Origin: Maylandia zebra
Taxonomy: Eukaryota > Chordata > Actinopteri > Cichliformes > Cichlidae
NCBI RefSeq assembly: GCF_041146795.1
Contig: NC_135177.1
Coordinates: 26,044,060 to 26,108,059, forward strand
Reading direction: 5' to 3'
Length of the DNA: 64,000 bases
Below, piece by piece: positions 272 through 64,000 of the stretch. Under the pieces are notes generated by a model, which had not been told where the DNA came from, made no database searches, and saw only the letters and a program-made list of their open reading frames with translations. The position numbers and the translations under genes are program-made. How positions within the stretch are numbered: position 1 is the stretch's first letter; every line of letters starts with the position of its first letter.

Positions 272-7866
<7,595 letters not shown>

Positions 7867-33485: not shown

Positions 33486-35030
33486 GTTAAAATCGCTGCA
33501 TTATGAGTGATCCTGAGTGGAGTTGCATGATGTCATGGTTTAGTCACACATATCTCCTGCGTCACTTGAAAGCCAAAAGGTATCTTATGTATGAAAATAA
33601 TGTCACAGCTTAAGCTTTTTTAGGAAGTGACTAGTAATCAACAAAGGCATACTAACTTTGCAGATATTTGTTATACAAGAAAGATGTGATTATTAATGTT
33701 TTATTATGAAACGTCATTGCAATGAAGTATTACCATATGGGAATACTTCAGTGCAATCTGCATTTTGGCGTAGTTGTGTGCCTGTGTGTGTTTGATAGAC
33801 ATAATACCTTATATTGCCAAGTGACATCAGCCCCACCTTTTGGTGGTTTGGTCTGGATCATTCAATCATTTTACTGAGGTAGAGAAGCATCCTGTTAATA
33901 CTTATGTAAAAAGCTCATTACAAACGTCAGTCTCAGTACAGACATTACTCTAATCCAATCATCTTCTTGTCCCTTTTTTAGCTAATCAACCTGCACTCAG
34001 TGTGGTTTCAGTGCCCTCCATTTTGCCTTTCAGATTCTCGTTTATGCAACCCACTTCCTCAGCATATCCACCATATCCAAGTCATTCAGAGCTCCAGTCC
34101 TCATCTTCGTCTTCACCACTACCAGTGTCTAGACTCTAGACCCTTGGGGATCCTGCCCTAATCCTATCACCACTGGGATTCCATGCTGCCATGATGAGTC
34201 AAAATAATTAATTTCTCTATCTTAGTAAATTATGTTCACCACTGCCAAATGATTAAAATCCAAGTAACGCTGAAAAAAATCATGAACCAAGAATGTTTGT
34301 GTGTGGTGGAGCTGTGGTCCCTGGGTCAGCTGCAGGGGAAGGGTGGTGCAAGGGAGGCTGTAGGTGGAGGTGATTGGACTAATGAGATTTTCCTTTTTTA
34401 TAGTGAGATGGGAGAACAGAAGGGGGGAGTGTGTGAAAAGCTGTCGTTCATGGGTGCCAAACCAAAGAAATTATATGTGTGTAAAATCAATGAAACTAAA
34501 TTGATCACAAGAAGAGTTCATTTACATTTTGTTTTAAAGGTTATTTATTTATTTATTTTTGTTGAGCATCGGTACGCCAACATCCAAGAAGGCACACTGT
34601 TGCTAATCATAGTAGTATAGTCCCCCCCCACACACACACTATATTATAGTAACTTCAAACTATGTGGACTGCACATGATTGAAAACTGCAGTAGACAAAA
34701 CTGTCATATGATTATAAATTGATATTGGTCAAAAGCAGTTTAAAAGCTACACATATTTTACATATTTTTTGCTTGCTTTATTTTAGTCGCTATATTGTAT
34801 ACACAAAATGAAAACATTGTTGCAAATGATTATTATTAAACCAACAACCACAATGAAAGGTTTCACCACCAAAAAAGCAAATCATTATATTAGAAACATC
34901 TATAATAAATCAAAAAGGAACAGATAGTTATCAGGTCATACAGAAGCAAAATCCAAAAATAACAAAAAGTAATCTGGCAGCGTCAATTGTGCTGCTCATG
35001 TAAAGATTCCAGATGTGGATGAAATACACA

Positions 35031-38000
35031 TCAGGGTATCAAAAGCAGCAGCGCTAGCAGGAGTGTGAGGAAAGGAGAGGCCATCATACCAGGAGAGAAT
35101 CCAAAAAGGCTAAAACACAAAGAAACGAATTAAGGAATTAAATGAGTTATACATTTCAGAAGAAGGTGTACATCGCCATCAGCACTGTTGTGTTTTACTG
35201 GGCATAATCTATGTGTGCTGTAAGCTGCAACAAATAATACACTCAGTTGTCTTGTAATTTTACACATTGGTACTGAAAACAATTCATTATTATGGCAAAT
35301 GTGAATTACAGACATTCTGATTGGCTGGTGACTATATTCTTGTGGGTCACTGCATAAATCATTATTACCCATGCAAGAAATACATGGGCAGAGACAAAAG
35401 ACTTTAATATTAGCATTACTAGTGTCATCATCATCACTGGGCAAGGTCATGTGTAAATCAAAGCATTATACGGTATGTATGTGAAAATAACATGTTGATT
35501 TCAAATCCTGCATCAAATATTGAAATGATTACAGCTTCCAAAATGAGCTTTTTCTTTTGTCTACTCCATTAAGTGTTCACCACTGCAGATCAGCTTTCAC
35601 CATCTCACCCTATTCCTCCATTGGTACACCAAGCCTCTGCATGTGCTGCTTCACTATAAGTTTTGCTGATGACTATCCTTAAATAAAGCTTTTTGTGTTG
35701 AGCACAAAATTATACTGTGTTCAGCAGTAGAATGTCTAAAATTTCAGGTCCAGCAGAGTTTACAGCTTGTGACAACAACACGATCTTACAAACAGATGAT
35801 TGTTGTACCTGTCATCTGTTGTCTCTGGAATTGGAATTGTGGTAGGTGAGATCCTGTAAACAACAAAGTATTTTTAACAGGTAGGTCAAAATTCTTATGT
35901 GTGTAAGAGTTTTAGTGTTTCTGGCTGCAAGAAACACATTCTATTTATTTAAAAAAAAACTGAAAATGTTTGAGAAATGTGGAGTACCTGCCATCTGTTG
36001 TGTCTGGAATTGGAATTGTGGTGGTTGAGATCCTGTAAAAGCATTTTCGAGAGGTCTATTAAAACTTTCATGGGTGCAGAAGTCAGTGCTAGAGTTTCTA
36101 GCACTAGTGTGCACTAGCTTTCAGATCTAGTAACAACAGACATACAAACTGCTTACTGCTATTTTCTTATGAATTTGTATGTTGTTTCATATGATATGTT
36201 TTCTCTTCATATGAATCCTAATTTAATAAATTTTGTACCGTGATGAGCAAGGTCCTTTATCCTGGTCTCCAGGAGGATGTGTAATATTAACTGTTCTCAC
36301 TTGAAGACATGGCAGTGAACTTCCATTAACTAGAGGTGTGAGATCTATTGAAAGAAGAAATTTAAAATATGTATACAGAAACTTGCATCACTTCATGCAT
36401 TTCTGTTGTAAAAGTTTCAAGTACAATATTTAAATTTAACAATGAAAATATTTAAATTTGCCTTGTGCACTGAAGATGAAAATGGCACTCCCTCCCTTGA
36501 GATAATCTCTGGATTTGATGTCTTCCAAAGATGCAAAATAATATCTACCATACAGGTTATTAGCATAGATGAGCTCATTGTTCTCATCAACAATTTGAGT
36601 TCCAACATCACGAGGTTTGCCCCAAAAGGGAACACCTATTTATAGAAAGCATATGTAACATAGTGGTCAATAATTTAGTTAGTAGATTTTTTAAGCATTA
36701 CTTCATTTTTCTGCAAACGTACCAGTGGTGGTGAGCAGATTTGGGTCAGTGGTGAGACTCATTTGCCTTGACATCTGTAGCTGGATGTTGGGGTTCTGAT
36801 CCACCATTTGAACAGTAAATTGCCTTTGTGGGCAAGGCCATTTCAGTTGGTCATCATAGACACCAGAGACAAGATGCACATATACTCCAAAATCTGTCTG
36901 CCTTAGATATAATGCTACCCGGTAAGCATAGCCCTCACTGGAATACTGCCTTGGGCTATATATCAGGGCCGGAGTATGAGTACTGTTCCAAAATCTCTCA
37001 AAATCATTAATCTGCCAGGTTCCATCTGGACACTCGAGCTCTGATAGATTGATGTCATCAATAGAGAAGCCACCTGTAGAGTTTCCTGCTCCTTTACGAA
37101 CCTCAAACTCCACCTGGAACTGCTTGGTGGCATTTAGAGGAACATGGTGGAGAGTCCAGTGAGATGTCGGTGGACCTAGAGGGAGAATTTTTAGATTAAT
37201 AGGTGAATGTGACGTATGTCTTCATGACAAAATGTGAAATGTGAAACATTTATACTTTCTCTGGAGAAAATCATCATAAATAATCACGCAAATGATTCAT
37301 TACCACTGATCTGTCCCATGAGGTAGCGAGTTCCTGTGGAGTCCCATTCATCTTGAAACTCTCTGATCCAGATGTTAAGTTCGTCTGTCTGGCTCCCATT
37401 GTGGTAATAGTAGAACTGCAGACACTGGACATGACACTCCCTCTGGGGACTCATCCTCTTTGTCTCCAGCCAGGCTGAGTCTCCCTCCTGACCTGGTCCT
37501 GTGCTAGCATACATGAAGTAACCCGCATCCTGACCTACAATACAGTTCAAAATTATCTTTAAATTTTAAGTATCAAAAGTATTTATTATTATCTCTGGCA
37601 GCTTACTTTTGATGTTAGTAATGCTGAGGTGGAAAACTACATTTTCCATTTAAAACTGTATATTAAACACTGCAATAAAAAAAATGCAATATTTGAAACC
37701 TTACCTTGATTACCATTTCCACTGGGCAGATTGGTGTGGTCAGAGCTGGGACCACCATAAACACCAGTTACCATTTCCCAGCCATTGCCACTCTTTGAAC
37801 AGCGGTTCATTTGACACATGGTCCCATTAGTAAAGCCACAGTACATCTTAAAGGCAATGGATGAGCCTGTAGAGATCAATTAAAAGCGCAAGTTTTTTTT
37901 TTCAAGGAAGGTTGGAGGGAAAAGGCAAAATTGTCAACTCACAAAACTGTCATCTCAAGTGAGTGAACTGTTTTCACGTGAGCAATTTTCTACACACATT

Positions 38001-41000
38001 CAGCACTTTTAGGCTTAGTTAATTACTGACAATGAGCAACAGAAAGTTGATTATTGGAGTACTCATGATATTGCTGAAATCGCAGCCTGACAATCCCGGT
38101 ATGTTGTTTTTTGTATGAATTAAACAAATAGAGTGGGATTATTTGCTGATTATAAATTGGCCATAGGTGCAAATATGAGCATGGTTGTCTGTTTGTTTAA
38201 ACCATTTTCAAATCATAATTGTGACTTGTTGAACTTTTCTTAAAACAAATAGACTTGATCATTGTGCCAGTTCAAAAAGTGATCATAATAGATATTTTGG
38301 AATTCAATAATATATAAATTTATGGCCTCGTGAATATAAGTAAAAACCCCTAGTAAAGAGCCCTACTAAGTTTAAATGCGCGTAGTAACTCTAAAAACAA
38401 TGTAAAAACTATTTACAAATGTGAGTGTGAGAAAGAAAATGGTTACTTTCTATTGGTTAAGAGCACAATATTCTCACGGTGTCCTTAGTAATTTTAACCA
38501 GTAATCCCAGAGTATTCCTAAAACTGGATGCTGGTCCCCATAATCTTTGAGCACTTACTGCATTTGTAGAGTAGATTCAGCTCCTGAACATCACTAGCAC
38601 TCATTTCCAGTCGTTGACCAATAAGATTCTGGAATTTGGGGTCTTTGGTGATAATTGTAGATCCATTGCCATTGGTGAAATCATCTTTGCCATAGTGCAT
38701 CACGGACAAATAGTCATATGGGACTCCATGGGTGGTGCTTTCATCACTGCCGACTATTCTAAAATTGTGCTTGTAAGCTATAAAAATCATATATAAAAGT
38801 CAAACATCAGATACAGTACACTTAACTGAAAATATTTTGATAATATGAGAGAAGGTCAAATCATAAAAGGAAATATTTTGTATACTCACTATAGTGATTT
38901 CATTGATTTTATGACTCAATCTCAGATTATTAAATAGTTATGATTTTATGTTAACAATTTCAGAGTGGTTATTACATTTATGCAGACTGCTTTATACAGC
39001 TTTAAGATAAGTATTTGAATAGAAATATTGAACAAAGACATTAACATTGTTATAATTAGTATAAGTGTTAACCAAACCCTCTAGGATGTTTTCAAAGTTA
39101 ATCGTCACATAATCATCTCTGTCATATCTGGACTGTTCATGGTAGAAGCCAAGAGCATGAAGGAACTCATGTTCAACAATTGCAATGTAACCACAGCCTA
39201 TTCCAATGGAGAGTTCCTGTCCATTGGAAAATATTCGTCCAATGTATGACCAACATCTGAAATTAAAGGCAGAACACTGATGAATATTTGTCCTATAACT
39301 AGTTATGTATTCTGTAATTTATTTAGTTTAATCTATAAAATCACAATTAAATAAATCAGAAAAGAAATAACAAAAACATAACCATTCTTAAAAATTTCAC
39401 TGTATTCATCTTGTTCTTTTGCTAGAACTATATATTTTGATTTGATATACCTTTATTAGTCCCATAAGGGGGAATTTCATAAGGCTGCCGACCTATTGCG
39501 CGCAATGGCGGCGCCATCTTACCCTCCAGCCATACATACATTACACAAAACATCACATGGGGAAGACAGGTCAGAGAGGTATAACAATGGAAAATGCACC
39601 ACATGAGGAAAGATAAGGAGAAAAAATAACTCCCCCCCCCCAGACTGAGCTCCAACAGGGAGATCAGTTTGAGAACAGAAAAAAACCCCTCTGCACAAAG
39701 CACATGAAAAAACTCTTAATACACCAAAGAAACACATGACAAGCAACAGGGGTGGGTAAAGGGTGAGAGACAGCTGATTTAGACAGTATCCGGTCCTGCA
39801 GCCTGTGCGCTGGTCTCCTTGATCCACCGTCAGCATCGGAAGGGAATAAGCGTCGAAGGCATTTGGAAAGGAAGGGGGGATGAGTGTGTGCATATCAGTG
39901 TGTATGTGTGTGTGTGTCCAGAGTTCAGCTGAGACAGTGTCCTTCGCCCTGCTAGGCTAAGTAAACAGTCTTCCAGCCAACCCAGGTGGCCTTGCATGGA
40001 ATGGGAAGGAACAGTCTAAACAGTCGTTATCAGGGTGTTTTTGTTCGGCTGCAACCTTACGACCGCAGCTGGCGCCGAGAGGGTATCAACATGAAGTGAT
40101 GGTGTTTCTTACTTTAGTGCGAACAGCTCATATGAATTTCAAAGCAGTTCTACAGTCTAACACTGGTCTCTCAATCTCCCATTGGAGAGCCGCGAGCTTC
40201 GCCATACTTGCGTTCTGTGATGTTGTCATTTCTTGTGCTCAAGGAGCCGATTCTGAGAACTCACGACAGTGTGCCTCCCCGAGATGTCATCCAATTTGCG
40301 TTCAGAGATGTTTTTCCGAGCTAGCCCTCTGAGATGTAATCCAGTCTGCAGTCAGAGATCTTATTCTGAGTATTCACAGCAGCCGTAGCCTTTCCAAGAT
40401 CTTATCCGTGCTGCACTCAATGAGCCCATTGAGTGCAGCAATCGTTTCAATCACATCGTTTCAATCCCAGTGGGCAGCCTTGTGGGGGTTTGAACAGCCG
40501 GTTCCGCTTTCTTAATTCTTCGATAAGTCAGGGCCAAGCCAGCTCCGATCAGCCAGAACCCTGTTACCATGGTTCCAAATAGGTAGATATCTTCAGCACT
40601 CAGGCTCACCCAAGCCCAAACTTCTCGTTGAGAAAGGGGTGTCAATTGCATTTAGGGACCAGTTGATCCAATCCATAATTCCTCTTTTAGGTTTTAGAGA
40701 ACAGACTGTGAGTGAGTGTTCCTGGGAAAAGTAATACAAAAAAACACGAGACTAGACAAGGACACAAGAGGCTAAGCAGGGAAGCTAAGGGAGAGGAGGA
40801 GGAGGAGAGGAGAAAAGTGCAACCGCCTTCGTCAAGAGCAAGAGCAGAAGTATATCACACACACATATATATATATATCACAAATTAAACTAAGCTAAAC
40901 GAACAAAAAGTCTAATTGAAAAATCAGCATAGTCATTTTTAGAATATTTATGCTAATTACAGCTAAGTAGAAAATTTTATTTTTAAAAACAACAACAACA

Positions 41001-42385
41001 AAGAGCAGAAAAACATACCCATTTAACTGTTTGACAGAAATGTAATAGTCCTCAGAGTCCCTTGGTTTGAAGTCAATGCATGATTTCAATCTGAACTGGT
41101 CAAAGGCTCTCAGAATGACTCCTTTAGAATTAATGTCTACCGTTGTTGTGTTATAGAGATTAAAAGAAAAGAAGAAGATATTTTAGACAACCAATAAAGG
41201 TCCTTAGCCTTGCCCATGCATTTTACTGTAAGGCTATAAAGCATGGAGCTATAAAAATTTTAGCAAAGGCGTGGGTGGTTGCTTTGCAAAACTATTCCAT
41301 TAAAGTAGCTCTGTTCACTCGCACATGCTGCTGTATTTTTTTTCAATATGTGGCTTCTATGTGTCAAAAGCGTCCAGCTGACATGGAAAAAATGCATTTT
41401 CAGGTATGACATCACAAAGATGTGTTCCCATAGAAATAAAGAAATAAAGACTTCTTTCAGGTGTATTTATAAGAAAATACATATTTACCAAGGTCATTAT
41501 TTAAGAGGTAGGGGACTGGAGATGTCCACAGGATGTTTTCATTAATAATGGTACTCCTCTGCTTGCCTATAGGCTAAAGTGTAAGAAACATGTATATTGT
41601 GACATAATGCAAAGTTACTATGCACACAGATGTTTTTAGAACAAATACATTTTTATCTTCATACAAAAAAACTCACCTCCAAAATATCATCATGTAAAAA
41701 TTCTAAGATAAAATTTAAAAAATTAGAAACAAGTCACTAATATTCAAGTACAGTTGCATGAAGAACAAAAATATCCTTATAAAAAGGTTTAGTTATAAGT
41801 AGATGTTGAACTTTACCCTTGTTTATTTCAGGAATGTCCTTCACTTCACCAACATCTACAAAAACAGATGAGGTATTTTTGTATACAGTTTTTTTTTAAT
41901 ATTAAAAAAAAATTGAATTTCATCAAATGATGTGGAAAATTAAAAAAATAGAACTTACCCACTATTTCTAGCCCATTCTGTAAAAATATCAAAGTGGTAT
42001 TAAAATAAATGTTCCATCATTTAACATACTGTATGTAGTACTGTGAATAAATGTTTTTTATTTTTTTTTTCATTTTAAGCTTTGATAGAAAACACACTCC
42101 ATACTTGTTGGTCAACATGCAAAATTACAATTTTTGTTTTTCTTTTTGAAAAACCAAAATCATTGTTTGTAGCTGATATTTAATATTCAGTATTATTGTT
42201 CAACAAACTTGATTACAAAACAAACCAGACAAATAATAAAAAAAAATCTCTTTAAGTTCTCTTTGCATATTGATATTTACGATTTCTGAAATATCACTAT
42301 GCAACTAATCACTTACTGGGTTTAAGGAGAATGCTTCAGAAATTGCCATGATCACAAAAATAAAAACACATTCTTTCATCCTCAT
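35031..42385 (-). CDS. Meprin-like astacin/MAM/MATH metalloprotease, copy 1, complete (16 coding exons, 682 aa)
   Basis: Secreted or surface zinc endopeptidase of the meprin type. Exons, 5' to 3': 42317-42385, 41959-41977, 41817-41855, 41677-41702, 41489-41573, 41019-41136, 39078-39256, 38559-38777, 37705-37866, 37304-37534, 36723-37175, 36462-36635, 36239-36344, 35988-36032, 35809-35853, 35031-35109; 2049 nt, in frame. Signal peptide (MRMKECVFIFVIMAISEAFS), propeptide with an Asp-switch-like FLHDDI, astacin zinc site HEFLHALGFYHEQSRYDRD (148-166), Met-turn SVMHY (203-207), MAM about 257-430, MATH about 431-590. A Thr/Pro stalk (592-657) follows, then a hydrophobic C-terminus (670-682) with no cytoplasmic tail. 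Human meprin beta instead has an EGF-like module, a membrane span and a cytoplasmic tail. The intron after exon 12 uses GC-AG. Meprin identity is firm; alpha versus beta orthology is not settled here. Confidence 0.92.
35809..36032 (-). repeat. Two tandem 45-nt stalk exons of meprin copy 1
   Basis: Exons 35988-36032 and 35809-35853 are duplicates, each flanked by AG and GT and of phase 2-2. They encode ISTTTIPIPDTTDGR-like and ISPTTIPIPETTDDS-like peptides. The repeating genomic unit is about 179 bp. Confidence 0.8.
39436..40850 (-). mobile_element. Unclassified retro-like element with a small membrane-protein frame, in intron 6 of meprin copy 1
   Basis: Present in copy 1 and absent at the same point of copy 2, so it is an insertion. 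It sits between ACTATATAT and TATATC, suggesting a short TATAT-type duplication. Read on the - strand it ends with GGGACTAATAAAGGTATATC, a tail style also seen in fish LINEs (compare 44640-44660). Near its 5' end (about 40651-40451) a 66-residue frame has one membrane-spanning segment (IYLFGTMVTGFWLIGAGLAL, then TYRRIKK). The rest has no recognised domain. Family unknown; it may be an old, decayed copy. Confidence 0.6.
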
Positions 42386-43034: not shown

Positions 43035-44890
43035 ATCTCTCACCTTTGACTGTTTTCAGTTGTATAACAAGGCTTTGTCTGTCAGGCTTGGATGCTGCGA
43101 TATTGTTCCATAATGGCCAACTCATTTCCCTGATGATGATACTTGAGTACAAAGTCTAAAAAGATCTTTTCAGCTCCAGTTGTTGCTGACTTGTTGGGTG
43201 AAATGATCCATAGCAACTACAATGTACTTATATAGACCCTGGAGCGGTTGGTCCTGGCTCAGCTTCGGCGCCTAACAAGCTCATCACTGGACCCACTTCA
43301 GTTTGCCTACCAGCCTGGCATTGGAGCGGATGATGCCGTCATTCACCTCCTACATCGTTCCCTCGCTCACCTGGAGACCGCTGGAAGCACTGTGAGAATC
43401 ATGTTCTTTGATTTCTCCAGTGCCTTCAACACTATTCTTCCCTCGGTTCTGAAGGACAAGCTGGAGAACTCTGGAGTGGACCATCACCTCACTACCTGGA
43501 TTTTGGACTACCTCACCGACCGACCACAGTATGTGAGGACTCAGGGCTGTGTGTCGGACAGGGTCGTCTGCAGTACGGGGGCCCCACAGGGAACGGTTCT
43601 GGCTCCGTTCCTCTTCACCATCTACACTGCAGACTTCTCCCACAATTCCACCCAGTGCTTCCTGCAGAAGTTCTCTGATGACTCTGCAATAGTCGGCCTC
43701 ATCACTGATGGGGACGACAAGGAGTACAGAGGACTGACTCAAGACTTTGTGGACTGGTGCCAGCTGAACTACCTCCAGATCAATGCCAGTAAAACCAAGG
43801 AGCTGGTGGTAGACTTCCGCAGGCACAAGCATTCTCCACTGCAACCACTGAACATCCAGGGTATGGACATTGAGGCTGTGGACAGCTACAGGTACCTTGG
43901 TGTTCATCTGAACAACAGACTGGACTGGACTCATAACTCAGACGCCCTCTACAGGAAAGGGCAGAGCAGGCTGTACCTGCTGTGGAGACTCAGGTCGTTT
44001 GGGGTGGAGGGCCCACTCCTGAAGACCTTCTATGACTCTGTGGTGGCTTCTGCTATCTTTTATGGTGTGGTCTGCTGGGGCGGCAGCATCTCTGCTGGGG
44101 ACAGGAAGAGACTGAACAGGGTGATCCGAAGGGCCAGCTCTGTTCTAGGATGCCCTCTGGACCCAGTGGAGGTGGTGAGTGACAGGAGAATGGCGGCTAA
44201 GCTGTCATCCCTGTTGGACAACATCTCCCACCCCATGCAGCAGACTGTGACAGCACTGAGCAGCTCCTTCAGTGGGAGACTGCGGCACCCACGGTGTGGG
44301 ACGGAGAGATTTCGCAGGTCTTTCCTCCCCACTGCTGTCAGACTCCACAACAAAGACTTTAACTGAACAAACACACACATCCACACATGTGCAATAACAC
44401 TAAGTGCAATAATCTTTTCTGGCATCGTTGTATTTTTACTCAGTTGTATATAGCATTCGTATTCTATTTTTATCTTATTGTATATTTTTATTCTATTTTA
44501 TTCTACTGTATATAGTATATTATTTTATTCTATTCTGTACAGTTGTGTACTGTATTTATTCTTATTGTATTCTAATTTTTGCGTCATAACTTTTGCACTG
44601 TCCACTTCCTGCTGTGACAAAACAAATTTCCCACGTGTGGGACTAATAAAGGTTATCTTATCTTATCTTATCTTATCTTATCTTATCTTATCTTATCTTA
44701 TATCCTCCATTACAAACTTCCAGATACAGATACAGTGATTCTCTGTTCGACTTGTTTGGAGATTTCTGTTCCAGGCAGCTAATGATCACCTAATAATCCA
44801 TATCTCTTTGCATATGTGTTATTGATCACGCTGAGTGTCTGTTCTACTCTAAGATGACACTGTGGATTTTATGCGCTTGTGTTCTACATC
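43035..44890. repeat. Low-copy repeat split by a LINE insertion
   Basis: 43035-43170 and 44853-44890 together match the uninterrupted block at 25525-25690. The sequence between them is mainly the LINE at 43213-44700. Confidence 0.6.
43213..44700 (+). mobile_element. 5'-truncated L2-like LINE with a long open reverse-transcriptase frame
   Basis: An uninterrupted frame (to the stop at 44364-44366) covers most of a fish L2/CR1-type reverse transcriptase: LDPLQFAYQPGIGADDAVIH, FDFSSAFNTI, GAPQGTVLAPFLFTIYTADF, the catalytic block QKFSDDSAIVG (FSDD in place of the usual FADD), NASKTKELVVDFRR, YRYLGVHLNNRLDWTHNSDA and RFRRSFLPTAVRLHN. The endonuclease is missing by 5' truncation. The 3' UTR ends in a (TTATC)n tail at 44653-44700. 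The intact frame and clean tail indicate a young insertion. Confidence 0.88.
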
Positions 44891-50300: not shown

Positions 50301-51138
50301 TAGCACAAACAAACACAACAGGAACAGGGCTAGATGGCAAGCCAAACACATTGGTGCCATCTTGGGCACAGGACCAAGATACTTGATAGCCATCACGTGG
50401 GAACGGCAAAGCTAGACTGTGTACAAAGGGAGGAAATTCAAGATAGAAAGTGGGCCATACAATAAGACAACATCCTCTTGGAGCAAAGAAAACTAAAAGT
50501 CAGTGCTTTGAAATGTTCTGGTCAAAACCATGACCTGAAGGGTTCTGGACGAGCTGCCCATGTCAGGAAAACACCAGCATGGCAGAATCGAATGTGTTCC
50601 TCTAGGCTGGTGACTAGGACTGGTCAATATAAATGTTTAGTTGCATTTACTGCTTCACAAAGTGGTAAATCAAATATTTAAATAATTGATCATTGCCTCA
50701 ATTATTTAAAAAAAAAATCCACATTTAGTTAGTTTTGCTTAATATACTCTGAAAACTTGCAGAAAATGAAAAAGAAAACCCACAAAAACATATGAGGTTG
50801 TTTTATGATGTATTTATAGGGGACTCTGAAAACTTCCAGAGCTGTAACAAAACATTTCCAGTAGAGGTACAGTTGGAGGTTTAAACACTGGCATGGAAAA
50901 TGTGAACATGATGATATGCTGCATACAACAGTTTTCTCATGGCAATTTCAAATGATTCTAAATTCCAAGTACTAGGTGAAATTGTTGTGTTACATTTTTC
51001 TTTCTTGTCAAGAACGTCTCTTCATAACAACCCTGCTCTGAAGCATGGCCATATTCATATGATTGAGAAACAAACGCCATGACCTGAGATCATTTCTAAT
51101 GATCCAATGACATGCGATACTTATCTTATCACTGCTTG

Positions 51139-53600
51139 TCAAGCAGAGAAGAAAAGTTGGCGTTCCTTTCCACTTCCTCCATGTAAAGGTTGGCTACAAT
51201 AGGTGACACGGGGGAGCCCATGGCACAGCCATGTTTTTGTCTGTAGAAGCCTTCGTTGTATTTGAAGTATGTTGTGTTAAGGCAGAGGTCTAACAGTGTG
51301 CAAATCTGATCGGGTGTGAAGTTGGTCCCGTCTTCCAAGGAGCTGTCTTCTTGTAGTCGTTTTCTGACAGTCTCCACGGCCTCCGTGGTGGGTATGCAAG
51401 TGAAGAGAGAGACTACAAAGGACACCATGGTTTCATTTGGATCCAGGGTAAGTTTCTGGACCTTGTCAGTGAAGTTCTTGATGTGGTGTGGGGTGTTCCC
51501 CACGAGAGGAGCAAGGATGGTGGCAAGGTGTTTTGCAATGTTATAAGTGGCTGAGTTTATGCTACTGAATATGGGTCTGAGTGGGACAGCTTCCTTGTGG
51601 ATTTTAGGAAGTCCGTAAATGCAGGGTATGGAATCCCCTGGGTAAAGGCGGTGATATGTAAGGCGGTCAATGGTTTTGTCCTTTTCAAAGTCTTGAAGGC
51701 AAGCTATAACTTTCTTTTTGTAGCTGCTTGTGGGGTCTCGCTTTAAGGCTTCGTAGGTATTGTTGTCACTGAGGAGAGTAGTGATCTTTGTATGGTAATC
51801 TGTAGTGTTTAGGACTAGGGAGACCGAAAAGCAGCGCACATTTCGGTGCTTTATCTCGGTGCTTTTTTTTCCTGAGCTGTGATACACTTCTAGCCAATCA
51901 TTTTACGTTTCCGAGGATAGTAGGCGGGTCCAGGTACGTACGTTCTTTTAGAGCAGAGCTACAGATTAAAAATGCCCAAGGCGAAGCGGTCAAAAGTCTG
52001 GCTGTACTTCACAGCAAAATATGCAAACTCAGCAGCCTGCAACAAGTGCTTTAAGCTGATACTGTGATACTGTCAAAGGAGGTAACACCTCGAATCCGAT
52101 GAAACACCTGGCGACGCATAGCGGGTTTTTTTTAAAGCCAAGAAATGCACTGTATTTGATAGCTTGCTGCGAGACCTCACACCCAGCGCATCTACTGCGG
52201 GTGTGGTGCCTGTTATCAGACCCGGAGTTAGCAACATCCCCAAAAACACAAAGAGGAGAGTCCTGGCCCCTAGCCCTGCCAGTGTAGCAGAAATGATGAC
52301 GGCAGCAGCAGCCGTTCTTCTCTGTGTGAGTAGCTTAATGTTGTTCGTGTGTAATTTACGTTGAGTAGGCTAACCACGTTATTACATTAATGCAGGTAAG
52401 GTGAACTAGCAAACATCATCATAGCTACATGCGGCTGTCTTCTTGTTTGATGGCAGATACTCCCTTCACCCTGGCCAAAAAGGCTAAAATGACCAAAGAA
52501 AAAGAGGGAAACGGCTAAACATGAGAGGTTTTTGGATAAAGTTTGTGTTTTTTCCATTGTTTAAGCACTGCTTCCAGCCAAGAGTGATGCCATATATGCC
52601 CCATAGCTGCAGAAAAGGCTAACATTGTTATCTTTTTACAAAAAACAGCTGAACATGAGAGGTTTTTGGACCAATTTTGTGTTCTCCATTCTTTAAGCAC
52701 CGGTTTGAGCACTGTTTGAGCACCGGCACCGTTTCAAAAGTACCGATTTGGCACCGGTATCGGATAAAACCTAAACGATACCCATCCCTATTTAGGACCA
52801 CGGTGCATCTTCCCTTATCAGCTGGTAAAACAGTGATGTTGTGGTCTTTGCTCAGGGAAGCGACGGCCTTCTTTTCTTGTATTGTGAGGTTGGACGGAAG
52901 GACTTTGGCACTGGAGAGGGTGGCTGAGACTTTCATCCTGATTTGCTCTGCTTCTGTCTGTGATAATTTATTAATCCGTATGGCGGATTCTGTGGCTGTG
53001 ATGAGGTCCACTATGGGCAACTGTTGTGGAGAAATGGCAAAATTGAGTCCTTTGGCTATTACTCTCTTTTCAGTTTCAGTGAGATTCCGGTCTGAAAAGT
53101 TCTTTACCCATTTCTCCTGACTGTCTTCAGGTGTGTTTTCTTCTCTGGGTTGTGTAGGTGTAGGTTCAGAATGAGGAGTGTGTGTTTTTGAAAGCAAGGT
53201 GTGAAATTTCCTGCGTTGTCTTTCTTTTCCTTTAGAATGTTGGGCCCGCTGAGCCTTGTCCACAAACTTGTAAACCTCTTCTAAGATTGGAGAGGGTAGA
53301 AGGGTTTCCAGTTCCTGCAGAGTCTGGCTGATCTTGATCTGGAGGGCATCTATAGTGAAATGGACCTGTCTTATCCTTTCACTTAAAAGGTGATTTTGTG
53401 CTCTCTGTAGAATCAAGTCTGTTCTGTATCCCCTGACAGTGGATCCAAGGCGCAGGCGCAGGGGGGATACTCCCACTAGGTTTAAATCTGGGACTCCCCA
53501 CCATTTGACCTTAGAACTGAAGAAGCTTCTCGGATGAGAGGTGAAACGTCTTCAAGCAACTTAAAGAAGTCCAGACGCTTTTCTTTGCAAGCTCCTTTGA
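51139..53600 (-). mobile_element. Penelope-like retroelement, broken, interrupted by a hAT element
   Basis: The - strand carries two coding parts of a fish Penelope-like element. One lies before the insertion (53476-52791), with SDRNLTETEKRVIAKGLNFA and VLPADKGRCTVV. One lies after it (51815-51139), with reverse-transcriptase blocks GDSIPCIYGLPKIHKE, PLRPIFSSINS and KHGCAMGSPVSPIVANLYME. The leading end has the sequence typical of this family near 53500-53600 (GAAACGTCTTCAAGCAACTT on the + strand). No GIY-YIG endonuclease part was seen. The copy is old and non-functional. Confidence 0.85.
51816..52790 (+). mobile_element. Non-autonomous hAT element with BED zinc-finger exon, copy B
   Basis: A perfect 8-bp duplication TTTAGGAC (51808-51815 and 52791-52798) flanks the 975-bp element. 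The right end, reversed, reads TAGGGATGGGTATCGTTT; the left end starts TAGGGAGACCG. The interior encodes SKVWLYFTAKYANSAACNKC and NPMKHLATH, a BED-type finger, without the transposase core. It inserted into the Penelope-like element at 51139-53600. Confidence 0.88.
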
Positions 53601-55620: not shown

Positions 55621-56234
55621 ATTAATTAATATCTCTAGTAAATTATTTTCAGTTCTTCCAAGTGATCTCTTTTTACATTCAAGCAACACACACACAAAAA
55701 ACAGAGGACCAAGAATGTTTTTGATTTAAAGGTTTTATTTTATGTTTTCTTAAACATCAATACACCAACAACCAAGAAAGCACACTGTGGCTAATCATTG
55801 TAGTATATTTTTGTTCACTACATTTTAATAACGTCAAACTCATGTAGATTTCTTGTGATTGAAAATTGCAGTAAACAAAACTATCATATGATTAAAGACT
55901 AATATTAGTTAAATGGAGTTTTAAACTTAGATATAGATAGATATTTTACATACTTTTCATTTCACTTTTTGCTTGCTTTATTTAGTTTTATTCTCTATAT
56001 TGTGGAGAGAAAAAAACAAACAAACAAAAATATTGTTGCAAATGATTATTTTAAAAACAAAAACTACAATGAAAAGTTCCTGCACCAAAAAAACAAATCG
56101 CTATATTAGGAAAATCTATAATAAATGAAAAATGAATCAATACACTAAAATAATAAAAAATATCTAAAATGAATCTGGCAGAGTCCTTGGTGCTGTCCAT
56201 GTAACGAGTCCAGATGTGGATGATCAAGATCACA

Positions 56235-59200
56235 TCAAGGCATAAAAAGCATCAGTGCTAGCAGGAGGGTGAGGACAGGAGAGGCCATCATACCAGGAGA
56301 GAAAGTGCTACTGCAGAAAGACAGGAAATAATTAAATAAGTCATGTATAGATAAGCTCATGATAAGTACAGAAATTCTGAATTGCTATCACTGCTTTTGT
56401 GTTTCTGCAAAATCTATGTGGGCTTCAAACTGCAACAAATGATGACTATTCTTAAACAGAGCTTTTTGTGATGAACACTATCATTGGTATAACATCTACA
56501 TTTTTCATGTCCACACACATTGTTATAAACAGAACATGTTTGAGAAGATTGTTGTGTCTGGAATTGGAATTGTGGTGGGTGAGATCCTGTAAACATCAAA
56601 GCATTTCTTAACAGGTATGTTAAAACTTTTTAGCGTTAATTTTAGTGTTTCTGTTTGAAAGAAACACTTTCTATTTATTAAAAATCAGGAAATGTTTGAG
56701 AACATTGCAGTACCTGCCATCTGTTGTGTATGAGGTAGGAATCGAGGTGGTTGAGATCCTGTAAGCATCAAAGCATTTCTTAACAGGTATGTTAAAACTT
56801 TTTAGCGTTAGTTTTAGTGTTTCTGTTTGAAAGAAACACTTTCTATTTATTAAAAATCAGGAAATGTTTGAGAACATTGCAGTACCTGCCATCTGTTGTG
56901 TATGAGGTAGGAATTGAGGTGGGTGAGATCCTGTAAAAGTTAAAGCATTTTTAGAGGGGTATTAAAACTTGTTAGAGTTTCACCTGCATTAACTTTTACA
57001 TCTAGCAACCACACTTATTCTTGCAAGGTGCTCAAAAATGCATGAGAAAATTGCAGTATCTCTCATCATATATATTGTTTCATATGACATGTTGTATCTT
57101 CACATGAGTTGTAATTTAATAATATGTCCTACTGTGATGAGCAGTTTCCTTTATCCTGGTCTCCAGGGGGATGTGTAATTTTTACTGTTCTTACTTGAGG
57201 ACAAGGCAGTGAACTTCCATTAACTAGAGGTGTGAGATCTATTGGAATAAAGAAATTAAAATAATCATAGAAAACTTGGTTTTGATGATGTGTAAAATGA
57301 TTGAAATGTTTCATACATTTCTGTTGTAAAAGTTTCAAGTACAATATATAAGTTTAGGAATGAAATTATTTAAATTTGCCTTGTGCACTGAAGATGAAAA
57401 TGGCACTCCCTCCCTTGAGATAATCTCTGGATTTGATGTCTTCCAAAGATGCAAAATAATATCTACCATACAGGTTATTAGCATAGATGAGCTCATTGTT
57501 CTCATCAACAATTTGAGTTCCAACATCACGAGGTTTGCCCCAAGCAGGTACACCTGTTTATAGAAAGCATATGTAACACAGTGGTTAATAATTTAGTGAG
57601 TACATTTTTAAGCATTACTTCATGTTTCTGCAAACGTACCAGTGGTGGTGAGCAGATTTGGGTCAGTGGTGAGACTCATTTGCCTTGACATCTGTAGCTG
57701 GATGTTGGGGTTCTGATCCACCATTTGGACAGTAAATTGCCTTTGTGGGCAAGGCCATTTCAGTTGGTCATCATAGACACCAGAGACAAGATGCACATAT
57801 ACTCCAAAATCTGTCTGCCTTAGATATAATGCTACCCGGTAAGCATAGCCCTCACTGGAATACTGCCTTGGGCTATATATCAGGGCCGGAGTATGAGTAC
57901 TGTTCCAAAATCTCTCAAAATCATTAATCTGCCAAGTTCCATCTGGACACTCGAGCTCTGATAGATTGATGTCATCAATAGAGAAGCCACCTGTAGAGTT
58001 TCCTGCTCCTTTACGAACCTCAAACTCCACCTGGAACTGCTTGGTGGCATTCAGAGGAACATGGTGGAGAGTCCAGTGAGATGTCGGTGGACCTGGAGGG
58101 AGAATTTTTAGATTAATAGGTGAATGTGACGTATGTCTTCATGACAAAATGTGAAATGTGAAACATTTATACTTCATCTGGAGAAAATCATCATAAATAA
58201 TCACGCAAATGATTCATTACCACTGATCTGTCCCATGAGGTAGCGAGTTCCTGTGGAGTCCCATTCATCTTGAAACTCTCTGATCCAGATGTTAAGTTTG
58301 TCTGTCTGGCTCCCATTGTGGTAATAGTAGAACTGCAGACACTGAACATGACACTCCCTCTGGGGACTCATCCTCTTTGTCTCCAGCCAGGCTGAGTCTC
58401 CCTCCTGACCTGATTCTGTGCTAGCATACATGAAGTAACCCGCATCCTGACCTACAATACAGTTCAAAATTATCTTACATCAGATCGTTAAATCTTAAGT
58501 ATCAAAAGTATTTATTATTATTGCTGGCAGCTTACTTTTGATGTTAATAATGCTGAGTTGGAAAACTAGATTTTCCATTTCAAACTGTAATAAAAACTGC
58601 AATAAAAAATGGAATATTTGAGACCTTACCTTGATTACCATTTCCACTGGGCAGATTGGTGTGGTCAGAGCTGGGACCACCATAAACACCAGTTACCATT
58701 TCCCAGCCATTGCCACTCTTTGAACAGCGGTTCATTTGACACATGGTCCCATTAGTAAAGCCACAGTACATCTTAAAGGCAATGGATGAGCCTGTAGAGA
58801 TCAATTAAAAGTGCAAGGTTTTTTTTTTCAAGGAAGGTTGGAGGGAAAAGGCAAAAATTTCAACTCACAAAACTGTCATCTCAAGTGAGTGAATTGTTTC
58901 GGTGTGAGCAATTTTCTACACACATTCAGCACTTTAGGCTTAGTTAATTACTGACAATGAGCAACAGAAAGTTGATTATTGGAGTACCCGTGATATTGCT
59001 GAAATTGCAGCCTGACACATAGCAATCCTGGCATGTTGATTTTTGTATGAATTAAACAAATAGAGTGGGATTATTTGCTGATTATAAATTGGCCATAGGT
59101 GCAAATATGAGCATGGTTGTCTGTTTGTTTAAACCATTTTCAAATCATAATTGTGACTTGTTGAACTTTTCTTACAACAAATAGACTTGATCATTGTGCC

Positions 59201-62200
59201 AGTTCAAAAAGTGATCATAATAGATATTTTGGAATTCAATAATATATAAATTTATGGCCTCATGAATATAAGTAAAAACCCCTAGTAAAGAGCCCTACTA
59301 AGTTTAAATGCGCGTAGTAACTCTAAAAACAATATAAAACTATTTACCAATGTAAGTGTGACAAAGAAAACGGCTACTTTCTATTGGTTAAGGGCACAAT
59401 ATTCTCACGGTGTCCTTAGTAACTTTAACCAGTAATCCCAGAGTATTCCTAAAACTGGATGCTGGTCCCCATAATCTTTGAGCACTTACTGCATTTGTAG
59501 AGTAGATTCAGCTCCTGAACATCACTAGCACTCATTTCCACTCGTTGACCAATAAGATTCTGGAATTTGGGGTCTTTGGTGATAATTGTAGATCCATTGC
59601 CATTGGTGAAATCATCTTTGCCATAGTGCATCACGGACAAATAGTCATATGGGACTCCATGGGTGGTGCTCTCATCACTGCTGACTATTCTAAAATTGTG
59701 CTTGTAAGCTATAAAAATCATATATAAAAGCCAAACATCAGATACAGTACACTTAACTGAAAATATTTTGATAATATGAGAGAAGGTCAAATCATAAAAG
59801 GAAATATTTTGTATACTCACTATAGTGATTTCATTGATTTTATGACTCTATCTCAAATTATTAAATAGTTATGATTTTATTTTAACCATTTCAGAGTGGT
59901 TATTATATTTTTGCAGACTGCTTTATACAGCTTTAAGATAAGTATTTGAATAGAAATATCAAACAAAGACATTAACATTGTTATAATTAGTATAAGTGTT
60001 AACCAAACCCTCTAGGATGTTTTCAGAGTTAATCGTCACATAATCATCTCTGTCATATCTGGACTGTTCATGGTAGAAGCCAAGAGCATGAAGGAACTCA
60101 TGTTCAACAATTGCAATGTAACCACAGCCTTTTCCAATGGAGAGTTCCTGTCCACGGGATGCTTTCCCAATGTATGACCAACATCTGAAATTAAAGGCAG
60201 AACACTGATGAATATTTGTCCCATAACTGGTTATGTATTCTGTAATTTATTTAGTGTAATCTATAAAATCACAATTAAATAAATAACAAAAACAGAATAA
60301 CAGAATAACAAAAACATAACCATTCATAAAAATTTCACAGTATTCATCTTGTTCTTTGGTTAGAACTATATATCCAGGGGTGCACATACAGTGGCTTGCA
60401 AAAGTATTTGGCCCCCTTGAAATTTTCCACATTTTGACACATTACAGCCACAAACATGAATCAATTTTATTGGAATTCCACGTGAAAGACCAACACAAAG
60501 TGGTGTACACGTGAGAAGGGGAACGAAAATCATACATGATTCCAAACATTTTTTACAAATAAATAACTGCAAAGTGGGGTGTACGTAATTATTCAGCCCC
60601 CTGAGTCATCCATCCATCCATTCGCTTCCGCTTATCCTTTTCAGGGTCGCGGGGAGCGCTGGAGCCTATCCCAGCTATCATAGGGCGAGAGGCGGGGTAC
60701 ACCCTGGACAGGTCGCCAGTCTGTCGCAGGGCCAACACACAGGGACATACAATCATTCGCACTCACATTCACTCGCACATTCACACCTAGTGGCAATTTG
60801 GATTATCCAATTAACCTATCCCCACAAGTTGCATGTCTTTGGACGGTGGGAGGAAGGCGGAGTACCCAGAGAGAACCCACGCAAACACGGGGAGAACATG
60901 CAAACTCCACACAGAAAGACCCTGGCCTGATGGTGGAATTGAACTCAGGACCTTCTTGCTGTGCGGCAACAGTGCTAACCACCGTGCCACCGTGCTGTCC
61001 TTAGGATTAGTGAATACCCCCTGAGTCAATACTACAAAAAGATTTCCCAAGCCTTGAACATCCCACGGAGCACTGTTCAAGCAATCATTCAGAAATGGAA
61101 GAAGTCTGGCACAACTGTAAACCTACCAAGACAAGGCCGTCCACCTAAACTCACAGGCCGAACAAGGAGAGCGCTGATCAGAAATGCAGCCAAGAGGCCC
61201 ATGGTGACTCTGGACGAGCTGCAGACATCTACAGTTCAGGTGGGGGAATCTGTCCATAGGACAACTATTAGTCGTGCACTGCACAAAGTTGGCCTTTATG
61301 GAAGAGTGGCAAGAAGAAAGCCATTGTTAACAGAAAACCATAAGAAGTCCTGTTTGCAGTTTGCCACAAGCCATGTGGGGGACACAGCAAACATGTGTAA
61401 GAAGGTGCTCTGGTCAGATGAGACCAAAATGGAACTTTTTGGCCAAAATGCAAAACGCTATGTGTGGCGGAAAACTAACACTGCACATCACTCTGAACAC
61501 ACCATCCCCACTGTCAAATATGGCGGTAGCAGCATCAAGCTCTGGGGGTGCTTCTCTTCAGCAGGGACAGGGAAGTTGGTCAGAGTTGATGGGAAGATGG
61601 ATGGAGCCAAATACAGCGCAATCTTGGAAGAAAACCTCTTGGAGTCTGCAAAAGACTTGAGACTGGGGCGGAGGTTCACCTTCCAGCAGGACAACGACCC
61701 TAAACATAAAGCCAGGGCAACAATGGAATGGTTCAAAACAAAACATATCCATGTGTTCGAATGGCCCAGTCAAAGTCCAGATCTAAATCCAATCGAGAAT
61801 CTGTGGCAAGATCTGAAAACTGCTGTTCACAAATGCTGTCCATCTAATCTGACTGAGCTGGAGCTGTTTTGCAAAGAAGAATGGGCAAAGATTTCAGTCT
61901 GTAGATGTGCAAAGCTGGTAGAGACATACCCTAAAAGACTGGCAGCTGTAATTGCAGCAAAAGGTGGTTCTACAAAGTATTGACTCAGGAGGCTGAATAA
62001 TTACATACACCCCACTTTTCAGTTATTTATTTGTAGAAAATTTTTGGAATCATGTATGATTTTCGTTCCACTTCTCACGTGTGCACCACTTTGTATTGGT
62101 CTGTCACGTGGAATTCCATTAAAATTAATTCATGTTTGTGGCTTTAATGTGACAAAATGTGGAAAAAGTGGTTGCAGAAGGTGAGATGGCTTCAAACAAA

Positions 62201-63704
62201 TGATGAATGCACAGAGATGTGGTGCAGAATATCCCATGAAAAACAGGTCCTTTTATATTATATAAAAGGCCCTGTTTTTGTCCGCTAGAGTGGAATCTAC
62301 CGGCACCACTTTTCCGAGAATACACGCTTCTTTTGCGGTTCGGACTCTGTCTGATATTTCTTTGGAGGTGGAGGAACACCAAAGTAATTGCTTAGAGGAG
62401 CTTGCTTCGTCGACATCTTTAAGAGTTCTAAACAAATGTCTGTCCTCCTCCAGAAAATCTTATGCACGCAAACGTGCGTTGCACCTTCTTATCTGGTGCG
62501 CGTCTTTGATATTGACAGTGTATGCGCACCTGCGGACTTATGTGCACCCCTGTATATATCACAAATTAAACTAAAGGAACAAAAAGTCTAATTGAAAAAT
62601 CAGCATAGTCATTTTTAGAATATTTATGCTAATTGCAGCTAAGTAGGAAATTTTATTTTTAAAAACAACAACAACAACAACAACAACAAAGAGCAGAAAA
62701 AAACATACCCATTTAACTGTTTGACAGAAATGTAATAGTCCTCAGAGTCCCTTGGTTTGAAGTCAATGCATGATTTCAATCTGAACTGGTCAAAGGCTCT
62801 CAGAATGATTCCTTTAGAATTAATGTCTACCGTTGTTGTGTTATAGAGATTAAAAAAAGAAAGAAGATATTTTAGACAACCAATAAAGGTCCTTAGCCTT
62901 GCCCATGCATTTTGCTCTAAGGCGCTAAAGCATACAGTTATAAACATTTTTTCCGGTTTTAGCAAAGGCGCGGGTGGTTACTTTGCATAACTGGATGGTA
63001 CAAAACTATTCCATTAAATTAGCTCTGTGCACTCGCACATGCTGCTGTTTTCTTTTTCATTATGTGGCTTCTATGTGTCAAAAGAGTCCAGCTGACATGG
63101 GGAAAAAAATGCATTTTCCGGTATGACATCACAAAGATGTGTTCCCATAGAAATAAAGAAATAAAGATTTATTTCAGGTGTATTTGTAAGAAAACACATA
63201 TTTACCAAGGTCATTATTTAAGAGGTAGGGGACTGGAGATGTCCACAGGATGTTTTCATTAATAATGGTACTCCTCTGCTTGCCTATAGGCTAAAGTATA
63301 AGAAACATGTATATTGTGACATAATGCAGTAAGTTACTATGCACACAGATGTTTTTAGAATAAATAGATTTTTTATCTTCATAACAAAGACTCACCTCCA
63401 AAATATCATCATGTAAAAATTCTAAAATACAATTTAAAAAATTAGAAACAAGTCACTAATATTCAAGTACAGTTGCATGAAGCTAAAAGAACAAAAATAT
63501 CCTTATAAAAAGCTTTAGTTATAAGTAGATGTTGAACTTTACCCTTGTTTATTTCAGGAATGTCCTTCACTTCACCAACATCTACAAAAACAGATGAGGC
63601 ACTTTTGTATACTGTTTTTTTTAATATTTAAAAAAAAATGAATTTCATCAAAAAAAAAGTGGAAAATTAAAAAAATAGAACTTACCCACTATTTCTAGTC
63701 CATT
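56235..63704 (-). CDS. Meprin-like astacin/MAM/MATH metalloprotease, copy 2 (first exon beyond the window)
   Basis: Tandem paralogue of copy 1, about 21 kb away in the same orientation. Visible exons, 5' to 3': 63686-63704, 63543-63581, 63396-63421, 63206-63290, 62709-62826, 60009-60184, 59490-59708, 58630-58791, 58221-58451, 57640-58092, 57380-57553, 57133-57238, 56886-56930, 56714-56758, 56235-56310. Phases match copy 1 throughout, and exon lengths match except exon 7 (3 nt shorter) and the last exon (3 nt shorter). Zinc site HEFLHALGFYHEQSRYDRD and Met-turn SVMHY are intact, as are the MAM and MATH domains. The stalk exons read ISPTSIPTSYTTDG, and the tail contains FSPGMMASPVLTLLLALMLF. 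The signal-peptide exon should lie about 40-110 bp past 64000. The frame is open throughout the visible part, so it is probably functional. Intron 6 holds a nest of transposons. Confidence 0.9.
56540..56930 (-). repeat. Three tandem units carrying 45-nt stalk exons (two intact, one decayed)
   Basis: Units of about 172 bp repeat in tandem. Exons at 56886-56930 and 56714-56758 keep both splice sites. The third unit keeps its acceptor (exon edge at 56586) but has lost the donor through a small deletion, so it is probably skipped. Introns between units are almost identical, indicating very recent expansion. Confidence 0.8.
60609..61016 (-). repeat. tRNA-derived SINE with (ATGG)n tail, nested in the Tc1 element
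   Basis: A perfect 12-bp duplication CCCCCTGAGTCA (60597-60608 and 61017-61028) flanks it. On the - strand the head reads GGCACGGTGGTTAGCACTG, then a B-box-like GGTCCTGAGTTCAATTCC. The body contains GTTTGCATGTTCTCCCCGTG, and the 3' tail is AATGGATGGATGGATG. It is oriented opposite to the transposase. Confidence 0.88.
61054..61983 (+). CDS. Tc1-like DD34E transposase, N-terminally shortened (309 aa)
   Basis: Uninterrupted frame: second helix-turn-helix region (NIPRSTVQAIIQKWKKSGTT, with GRPPKLTGRTRRA), then the catalytic triad as VLWSDETKMELFG (first D), FQQDNDPKHKAR (second D) and SPDLNPIENLW (E, 34 residues after the second D). Family members are about 340 aa. Here the first 20-25 residues are lost: the reading frame upstream (YYKKISQALNIP) joins the terminal repeat directly. 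With a damaged right end and a SINE in the leader, the copy is unlikely to move itself, though the catalytic domain looks intact. Confidence 0.9.
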   Translation: MNIPRSTVQAIIQKWKKSGTTVNLPRQGRPPKLTGRTRRALIRNAAKRPMVTLDELQTSTVQVGESVHRTTISRALHKVGLYGRVARRKPLLTENHKKSCLQFATSHVGDTANMCKKVLWSDETKMELFGQNAKRYVWRKTNTAHHSEHTIPTVKYGGSSIKLWGCFSSAGTGKLVRVDGKMDGAKYSAILEENLLESAKDLRLGRRFTFQQDNDPKHKARATMEWFKTKHIHVFEWPSQSPDLNPIENLWQDLKTAVHKCCPSNLTELELFCKEEWAKISVCRCAKLVETYPKRLAAVIAAKGGSTKY

Positions 63705-64000
63705 CTGTAAAAGTATCAAAGTAGTATTAAACTAAATGTTCCATCATTTAACATACTTTATGTAGTACTATGAATAAATGTTTTTTATTTTTTATTTTAT
63801 TTTATTTTTTTACATTTTAAGCTTTGATAGAAAACACACTCCATACTTGTTGGTCAACATGCAAAATTAAAACTTTTCTTTTTGAAAAAACAAAATCATT
63901 GTCAGTAGCTGATATTTAATATTCAATATTATTGTCAAACATCTTCATCACAAAACAAACCAGACAAATAATTTAAAAAATCTCTAAGTTCTCTTTGCAT

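Follow-up and report, generated by a model that had tools for sequence, protein, structure and literature searches.

A GPI-signal-like last exon in two tandem beta-derived meprin genes of Maylandia zebra

What does it mean for the placement of a protease when its last exon ends on a hydrophobic run and adds no cytoplasmic tail? The question is raised by two meprin genes that lie in tandem on the minus strand of a 64,000-nucleotide stretch of the genome of the cichlid Maylandia zebra (the window; contig C11, NC_135177.1, 26044060-26108059), to which all coordinates refer unless another contig is named. A preliminary description of this stretch had proposed that a meprin-like protease, with the astacin, MAM and MATH domains, is held at the cell surface by a glycosylphosphatidylinositol (GPI) anchor. 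Our analysis suggests that the last exon of both genes probably encodes a C-terminal GPI signal. This reading draws on in-frame gene models, a hydrophobic window at the very end of each protein, the scores of a rule for GPI signals, the conservation of the tail between the copies, polyadenylation signals past the stop, and the lack of a convincing match to the EGF, span and tail pieces of two paralogues.

The ending and its exons

We assembled both gene models manually, following splice sites and reading frame. Copy 1 consists of 16 exons (42385-35031, minus strand) that encode a 682-residue astacin/MAM/MATH product. Its splice phases agree at every exon junction, and its 15 introns all have AG acceptors, with GT donors in 14 and a GC donor in one, after exon 12. 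Copy 2 (64117-56235, minus strand) has the same layout, including 15 introns that all end in AG and begin with GT in 14 cases, and a 680-residue product; its first exon (64117-64049) lies 49-117 bases outside the window edge. The preliminary description had joined the last exon in frame to the stalk in both copies, with intron borders at 35109/35809 and 56310/56714, and the splice phases bear this out for the last exons at 35109-35031 and 56310-56235.

The ending of copy 1 is also as described. Residues 670-682 form a 13-residue hydrophobic run (FLTLLLALLLLIP), the last exon terminates in FSPGMMASPFLTLLLALLLLIP directly before the stop, and there are zero residues beyond the run, so that the C-terminus reads TTDDSLFGFSPGMMASPFLTLLLALLLLIP. 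The C-terminus of copy 2 is TTDGSSTFSPGMMASPVLTLLLALMLFMP, finishing FSPGMMASPVLTLLLALMLFMP. In both copies the final 19 residues make up the most hydrophobic 19-residue window, with 0 residues after it and a mean hydropathy of 2.11 in copy 1 and 1.89 in copy 2. The pattern of small residues, spacer and hydrophobic end without a cytoplasmic tail scores 11.2 (copy 1) and 10.0 (copy 2) under a home-made, uncalibrated GPI rule, which rejects the tails of two meprin paralogues on contigs C18 and C22.

How often such a tail arises was gauged from 3327 acceptor-like sites on both strands of the window and eight other genome stretches (stretches repeating others were excluded; about 1 kb is shared between one stretch and the window), 1433 of which led to a tail 15-60 residues long in the phase required. 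The rule passes 25 of the 1433, and three of the 25 are the last exons of the window, that of copy 2 being reached via two acceptor-like sites. The score of copy 1 is the highest of all (best unrelated tail, 11.13), and 3 of the 22 unrelated passing tails score at least as high as copy 2 (10.02). Across the whole genome (962 Mb, 63 contigs), the DNA of the last exon has two matches, which are the two window copies, in a search that diverged relatives would escape.

The features of copy 1 are as follows.

42317..42385, minus strand: exon 1, with the start codon and an N-terminus resembling a signal peptide (MRMKECVFIFVIMAISEAFS...; judged by eye alone)
41019..41977, minus strand: exons 2-6 (41977-41959, 41855-41817, 41702-41677, 41573-41489, 41136-41019), propeptide and beginning of the astacin domain
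39256-39078 and 38777-38559, minus strand: exons 7-8, zinc site HEFLHALGFYHE (148-159) and Met-turn SVMHYG (203-208)
36462..37866, minus strand: exons 9-12, MAM (261-432) and MATH (435-585), with the GC donor in the intron after exon 12
36239..36344, minus strand: exon 13, in which the stalk begins and which carries cysteines 604 and 624
36032-35988 and 35853-35809, minus strand: exons 14 and 15, tandem 45-base exons that are 15-residue Thr/Pro-rich stalk units
35031..35109, minus strand: exon 16 (last), GPI-signal-like tail SLFGFSPGMMASPFLTLLLALLLLIP-stop
34777..34782, minus strand: polyadenylation signal AATAAA, 254 bases past the stop

Those of copy 2 are as follows.

56235..64000, minus strand: exons 2-16, within the window
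56930-56886 and 56758-56714, minus strand: stalk exons 14 and 15
56550..56586, minus strand: decayed third stalk unit, which retains the acceptor and coding start and has no donor end like that of the live units
56235..56310, minus strand: last exon, SSTFSPGMMASPVLTLLLALMLFMP-stop, its first serine codon split with the preceding exon
55977..55992, minus strand: two polyadenylation signals AATAAA, 248 and 258 bases past the stop

Each copy thus carries two live 45-base stalk exons, copy 2 having in addition the one without a donor end, and stalk length seems to change through exon duplication and decay. The GC donor of the intron after exon 12 is common to both copies (36462 and 57380). Mobile elements were noted within and between the genes. 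Intron 6 of copy 2 holds a 334-codon open transposase frame (60979-61983; Pfam HTH_Tnp_Tc3_2 and DDE_3), and intron 6 of copy 1 a different insert, judged by eye to lie around 39440-40880. A retroelement reverse transcriptase frame lies between the copies at 43236-44363 (Pfam RVT_1), and a further match, on the minus strand at 51132-51902, falls short of the family cut-off.

With respect to the attachment site, the preliminary description had nominated SPG and ASP. A proline next after the site, or a site that abuts the hydrophobic run, is unfavourable. A proline comes just after the SPG site and ASP abuts the run, and therefore neither is a good attachment site. Better-fitting candidates are DDS or GFS for copy 1 and, for copy 2, GSS or SST.

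Conservation between the copies and other explanations of the tail

The two copies (35031-42385 and 56235-64117) are a mosaic. Exons 2-12 are 94.7-100% identical, and the introns compared among them 86.4-97.7%; intron 6, with its different insert in each copy, was left out of the comparison. Identity is 80.3% in the intron after exon 12 and 48.4-82.5% in the introns from exon 13 onward. Synonymous divergence (Ks) stays at 0.026 for exons 1-12 but rises to 0.18-0.37 in pieces taken from exons 13-16. The simplest reading is that gene conversion homogenised the ectodomain part and halted before the stalk, leaving an older 3' end that would have been diverging freely. The preliminary description had argued that copy 2 keeps the plan of copy 1 despite sequence differences; the phrase suits the 3' end but not exons 1-12, which are near-identical.

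Within the 3' end, the tail is partly conserved. Counting from FSPG through the stop, 62 of 69 bases are identical, compared with 86/142 in the adjoining upstream intron (P 6e-6); for the entire last exon the figure is 63/76 (P 7e-4 against the same intron). The seven differences in the 69 bases comprise three silent and four replacement changes, the four all exchanging one hydrophobic residue for another, and the sole length difference in the last exon is one whole codon. The last exon is very probably coding, and the pattern of change suggests selection acting on the tail. A frame-shifted or chance exon was considered and judged unlikely, because phases, acceptors and conservation concur in both copies.

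Several observations weigh against a GPI signal or reduce the force of the evidence for one. The home-made rule detected 2 of 4 GPI tails used as positive controls. It also passes 22 of the 1433 background tails that are unrelated (1.5%, some of them one tail counted via two sites), and therefore the shape of the tail is uncommon, not unique. When the last 26 residues are shuffled, the result still passes in 2893/5000 trials for copy 1 and 1238/5000 for copy 2, so composition, rather than residue order, carries much of the score. The case for constraint is subject to similar reservations. Tail against 3' untranslated region is a borderline comparison (62/69 versus 186/236, P 0.052), simulated random substitutions leave the tail's hydrophobic residues in place in 7.7% of trials, and the ratio of replacement to silent divergence (Ka/Ks) in the last exon, 0.45-0.49, comes from few changes. 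Furthermore, the support is drawn from two related copies in one genome.

Finally, the hydropathy means of both tails exceed 1.6, a common threshold for a membrane span. This counts in favour of a different reading, namely that the last exon encodes a conventional type I span from which the cytoplasmic tail has disappeared, the protein ending at the inner face of the membrane. Two further points lean the same way: a transmembrane region is part of the definition of a meprin in the portion of Marin 2015 available to us (PMC4545420), and the C22 paralogue, which has no EGF match either, still has a span. Nevertheless, no residue and no basic stop-transfer cluster follow the run, 13 residues are short for a span, and small-residue sites stand upstream at the usual distance. 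An ordinary span therefore seems to us unlikely, if the strongest of the competing explanations.

A second possibility is that the last exon is unused, or is one alternative end, while the main product is secreted or spans the membrane via an unrecognised exon. Intron 15 is the least alike among the introns compared (699 versus 403 bases, 48% identity), and therefore a different 3' end could hide there. Yet the exact phase and acceptor are present in both copies, conservation rises above that of the intron, AATAAA lies past the stop, and similarity reveals no other tail exon. Specifically, a hidden exon for an EGF module, span or tail was sought with the C18 EGF, C18 span-tail and C22 span pieces and rejected, because tblastn matches across the window plus 8.9 kb were weak and none of them convincing (best E 0.03, in an asparagine run). 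We accordingly hold this explanation to be more doubtful than a type I span. That the tail is the relic of a gene in decay, in one copy or in both, is very improbable, since the signs of decay (tandem copies, intron 6 insertions, the defunct third stalk unit of copy 2) are countered by open frames over 16 exons and by intact splice sites, zinc site and Met-turn tyrosine in both copies.

Protein family and paralogues in the same genome

The meprin identity given in the preliminary description agrees with the domains and with the closest solved structure. A Pfam scan of copy 1 found astacin at 67-252 (E 7.5e-62), MAM at 261-432 (PF00629, E 1.8e-31) and MATH at 435-585 (PF22486, E 3.5e-13), and no match to an EGF module, whose absence had likewise been noted. 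The top structural match of copy 1 is human meprin beta (4GWM, E 2e-154, 518.9 bits), with meprin alpha at 394.7 bits. The zinc site HEFLHALGFYHE at 148 (HExxHxxGxxH) and the Met-turn SVMHYG at 203 are common to both copies. On the strength of these domains, the best match and the two motifs, both copies are, by homology, beta-derived meprins.

Two changes set copy 1 apart from human meprin beta, the numbering of which we verified by our own count against Ser182-Glu185 and Tyr211 as given in part of PMC8197800. First, Cys305, which according to that source joins both subunits of the human enzyme, has no counterpart: in the alignment to 4GWM, the equivalent stretch of copy 1, within the part encoded at 36723-37866, is LPSGNGNQGQDAG, a loop without cysteine, whereas the C18 meprin frame retains a cysteine at that position (GKC). 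Copy 1 has two extra MAM cysteines, at 274 and 339, and another cysteine could take the place of Cys305 as the dimer link. Second, Arg184 of the S1 pocket is a tyrosine in copy 1, and Arg238 is unchanged; meprin alpha also has a tyrosine at that S1 site (Tyr187; PMC8197800, in part). With Cys305 lost and Arg184 replaced by tyrosine, substrate preference and dimer form may differ from those of meprin beta.

Searches of the whole genome returned 41 astacin and 22 MATH matches, which coincide at five places: both window copies, the genes on C18 and C22, and a piece on C15. Since these and five more astacin places (below) were the ones opened, the number of meprins is a minimum. In the C18 gene an EGF-like piece is followed by a span and by a basic tail (KKKYKKR...). 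A span and a tail (GKAWRTNKMKR...) are also present in the C22 gene (reverse strand, bases 2519-2328 of its stretch); by eye, no EGF module is visible in the short gap between its MATH domain and span, and the C18 EGF piece found no match there. After the best 19-residue window, 23 residues follow in C18 and 47 in C22 up to the stop of the open frame. The C22 MATH piece and the C18 MAM-MATH piece both score higher with meprin beta than with alpha. Against these two paralogues, each of which keeps a membrane span and tail, the window pair stands out by an ending that is a genuine departure.

The C15 piece (C15:76000-85999, about 4843-5839) looks like the remains of a meprin: its zinc site is altered, the longer match contains stops, and no 3' end was found for it. 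Its MATH match, under the family cut-off, lies at C15:88574-88786. At five other astacin places aligned to copy 1 (two on C15, 3.5 kb each; C12, C7 and C6, 10 kb each), the match was confined to the protease part.

A probable GPI-anchored meprin and known systems

As far as the sequence can tell, GPI attachment is the likeliest meaning of the ending, as had been proposed. The scheme that we envisage, in which transcription of the last exon, transamidation, attachment site and cell location are all predictions, begins with tandem beta-derived meprins made of signal peptide, propeptide, astacin, MAM, MATH, a short Thr/Pro-rich stalk and a GPI signal, the stalk having been assembled from duplicated 45-base exons. 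The protein would enter the endoplasmic reticulum via its predicted signal peptide. There, GPI transamidase would remove the last ~22-27 residues and couple the stalk to a lipid of the outer leaflet, the predicted attachment residues being D655 or G660 for copy 1 and G655 or S656 for copy 2. Without a cytoplasmic tail, the mature enzyme would be held at the membrane's outer face, probably on epithelia. In evolutionary terms, we tentatively picture a fish lineage in which a meprin beta, at first covalently dimeric and membrane-spanning, gave up its EGF module and the known dimer-linking cysteine and became a GPI-anchored enzyme. The length of its stalk would vary by duplication and loss of 45-base exons, and gene conversion would keep the protease part uniform while stalk and anchor diverge. 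Such an enzyme would be a GPI-anchored astacin.

Which substrates a meprin meets, and how it is shed, depend on the way it is held. If the GPI form is real, it would offer a natural case in which the contribution of anchoring can be told from that of catalysis, place a meprin in another part of the membrane, and make release by phospholipase possible.

With meprin beta (human 4GWM and C18), the window pair shares the order of propeptide, astacin, MAM and MATH, and copy 1 has a counterpart for each cysteine in the human protein's four listed intramolecular disulfides. In contrast, copy 1 has no EGF match, no span-plus-tail ending and no counterpart of Cys305. The preliminary description had set this arrangement against mammalian meprins, a contrast that should be widened to fish meprins. 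In the part of Marin 2015 available to us (PMC4545420), divergent beta-derived fish meprins are termed meprin-F, with at least four tandem copies in Poecilia formosa, and the EGF module is missing in about 22% of meprins, mostly from fish; C22 itself shows no EGF module yet has a span and tail. The window pair resembles meprin-F in being tandem fish duplicates of beta origin and in showing no EGF match, a module that many fish meprins lack. Two Poecilia meprin-F proteins have serine in place of the Met-turn tyrosine (PMC4545420), which the window pair retains.

The term GPI is absent from the main text of Marin 2015 as available to us (PMC4545420), and neither "GPI" nor "transmembrane" occurs in the available part of a zebrafish paper (PMC2809112). 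A paper on growth genes in tilapia, also available in part, names meprin in passing only (PMC7811220). Among the matches listed by our literature search, which left most subscription journals outside its scope, no title or start of an abstract described a GPI-anchored meprin or astacin. A functional precedent, by analogy only, is offered by the membrane-type matrix metalloproteinases (MT-MMPs) of GPI type. The catalytic family of the MMPs is unrelated to the astacin family. MT4-MMP and MT6-MMP are GPI-anchored metzincins, unlike related membrane-type members, according to the accessible portion of PMC3037967. If the window meprins are indeed GPI-anchored, the astacin family would repeat a mode of anchoring found among the membrane-type MMPs. 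Divergent EGF-less fish meprins are already in print, and it is the GPI-like ending of the window pair that would be the new part.

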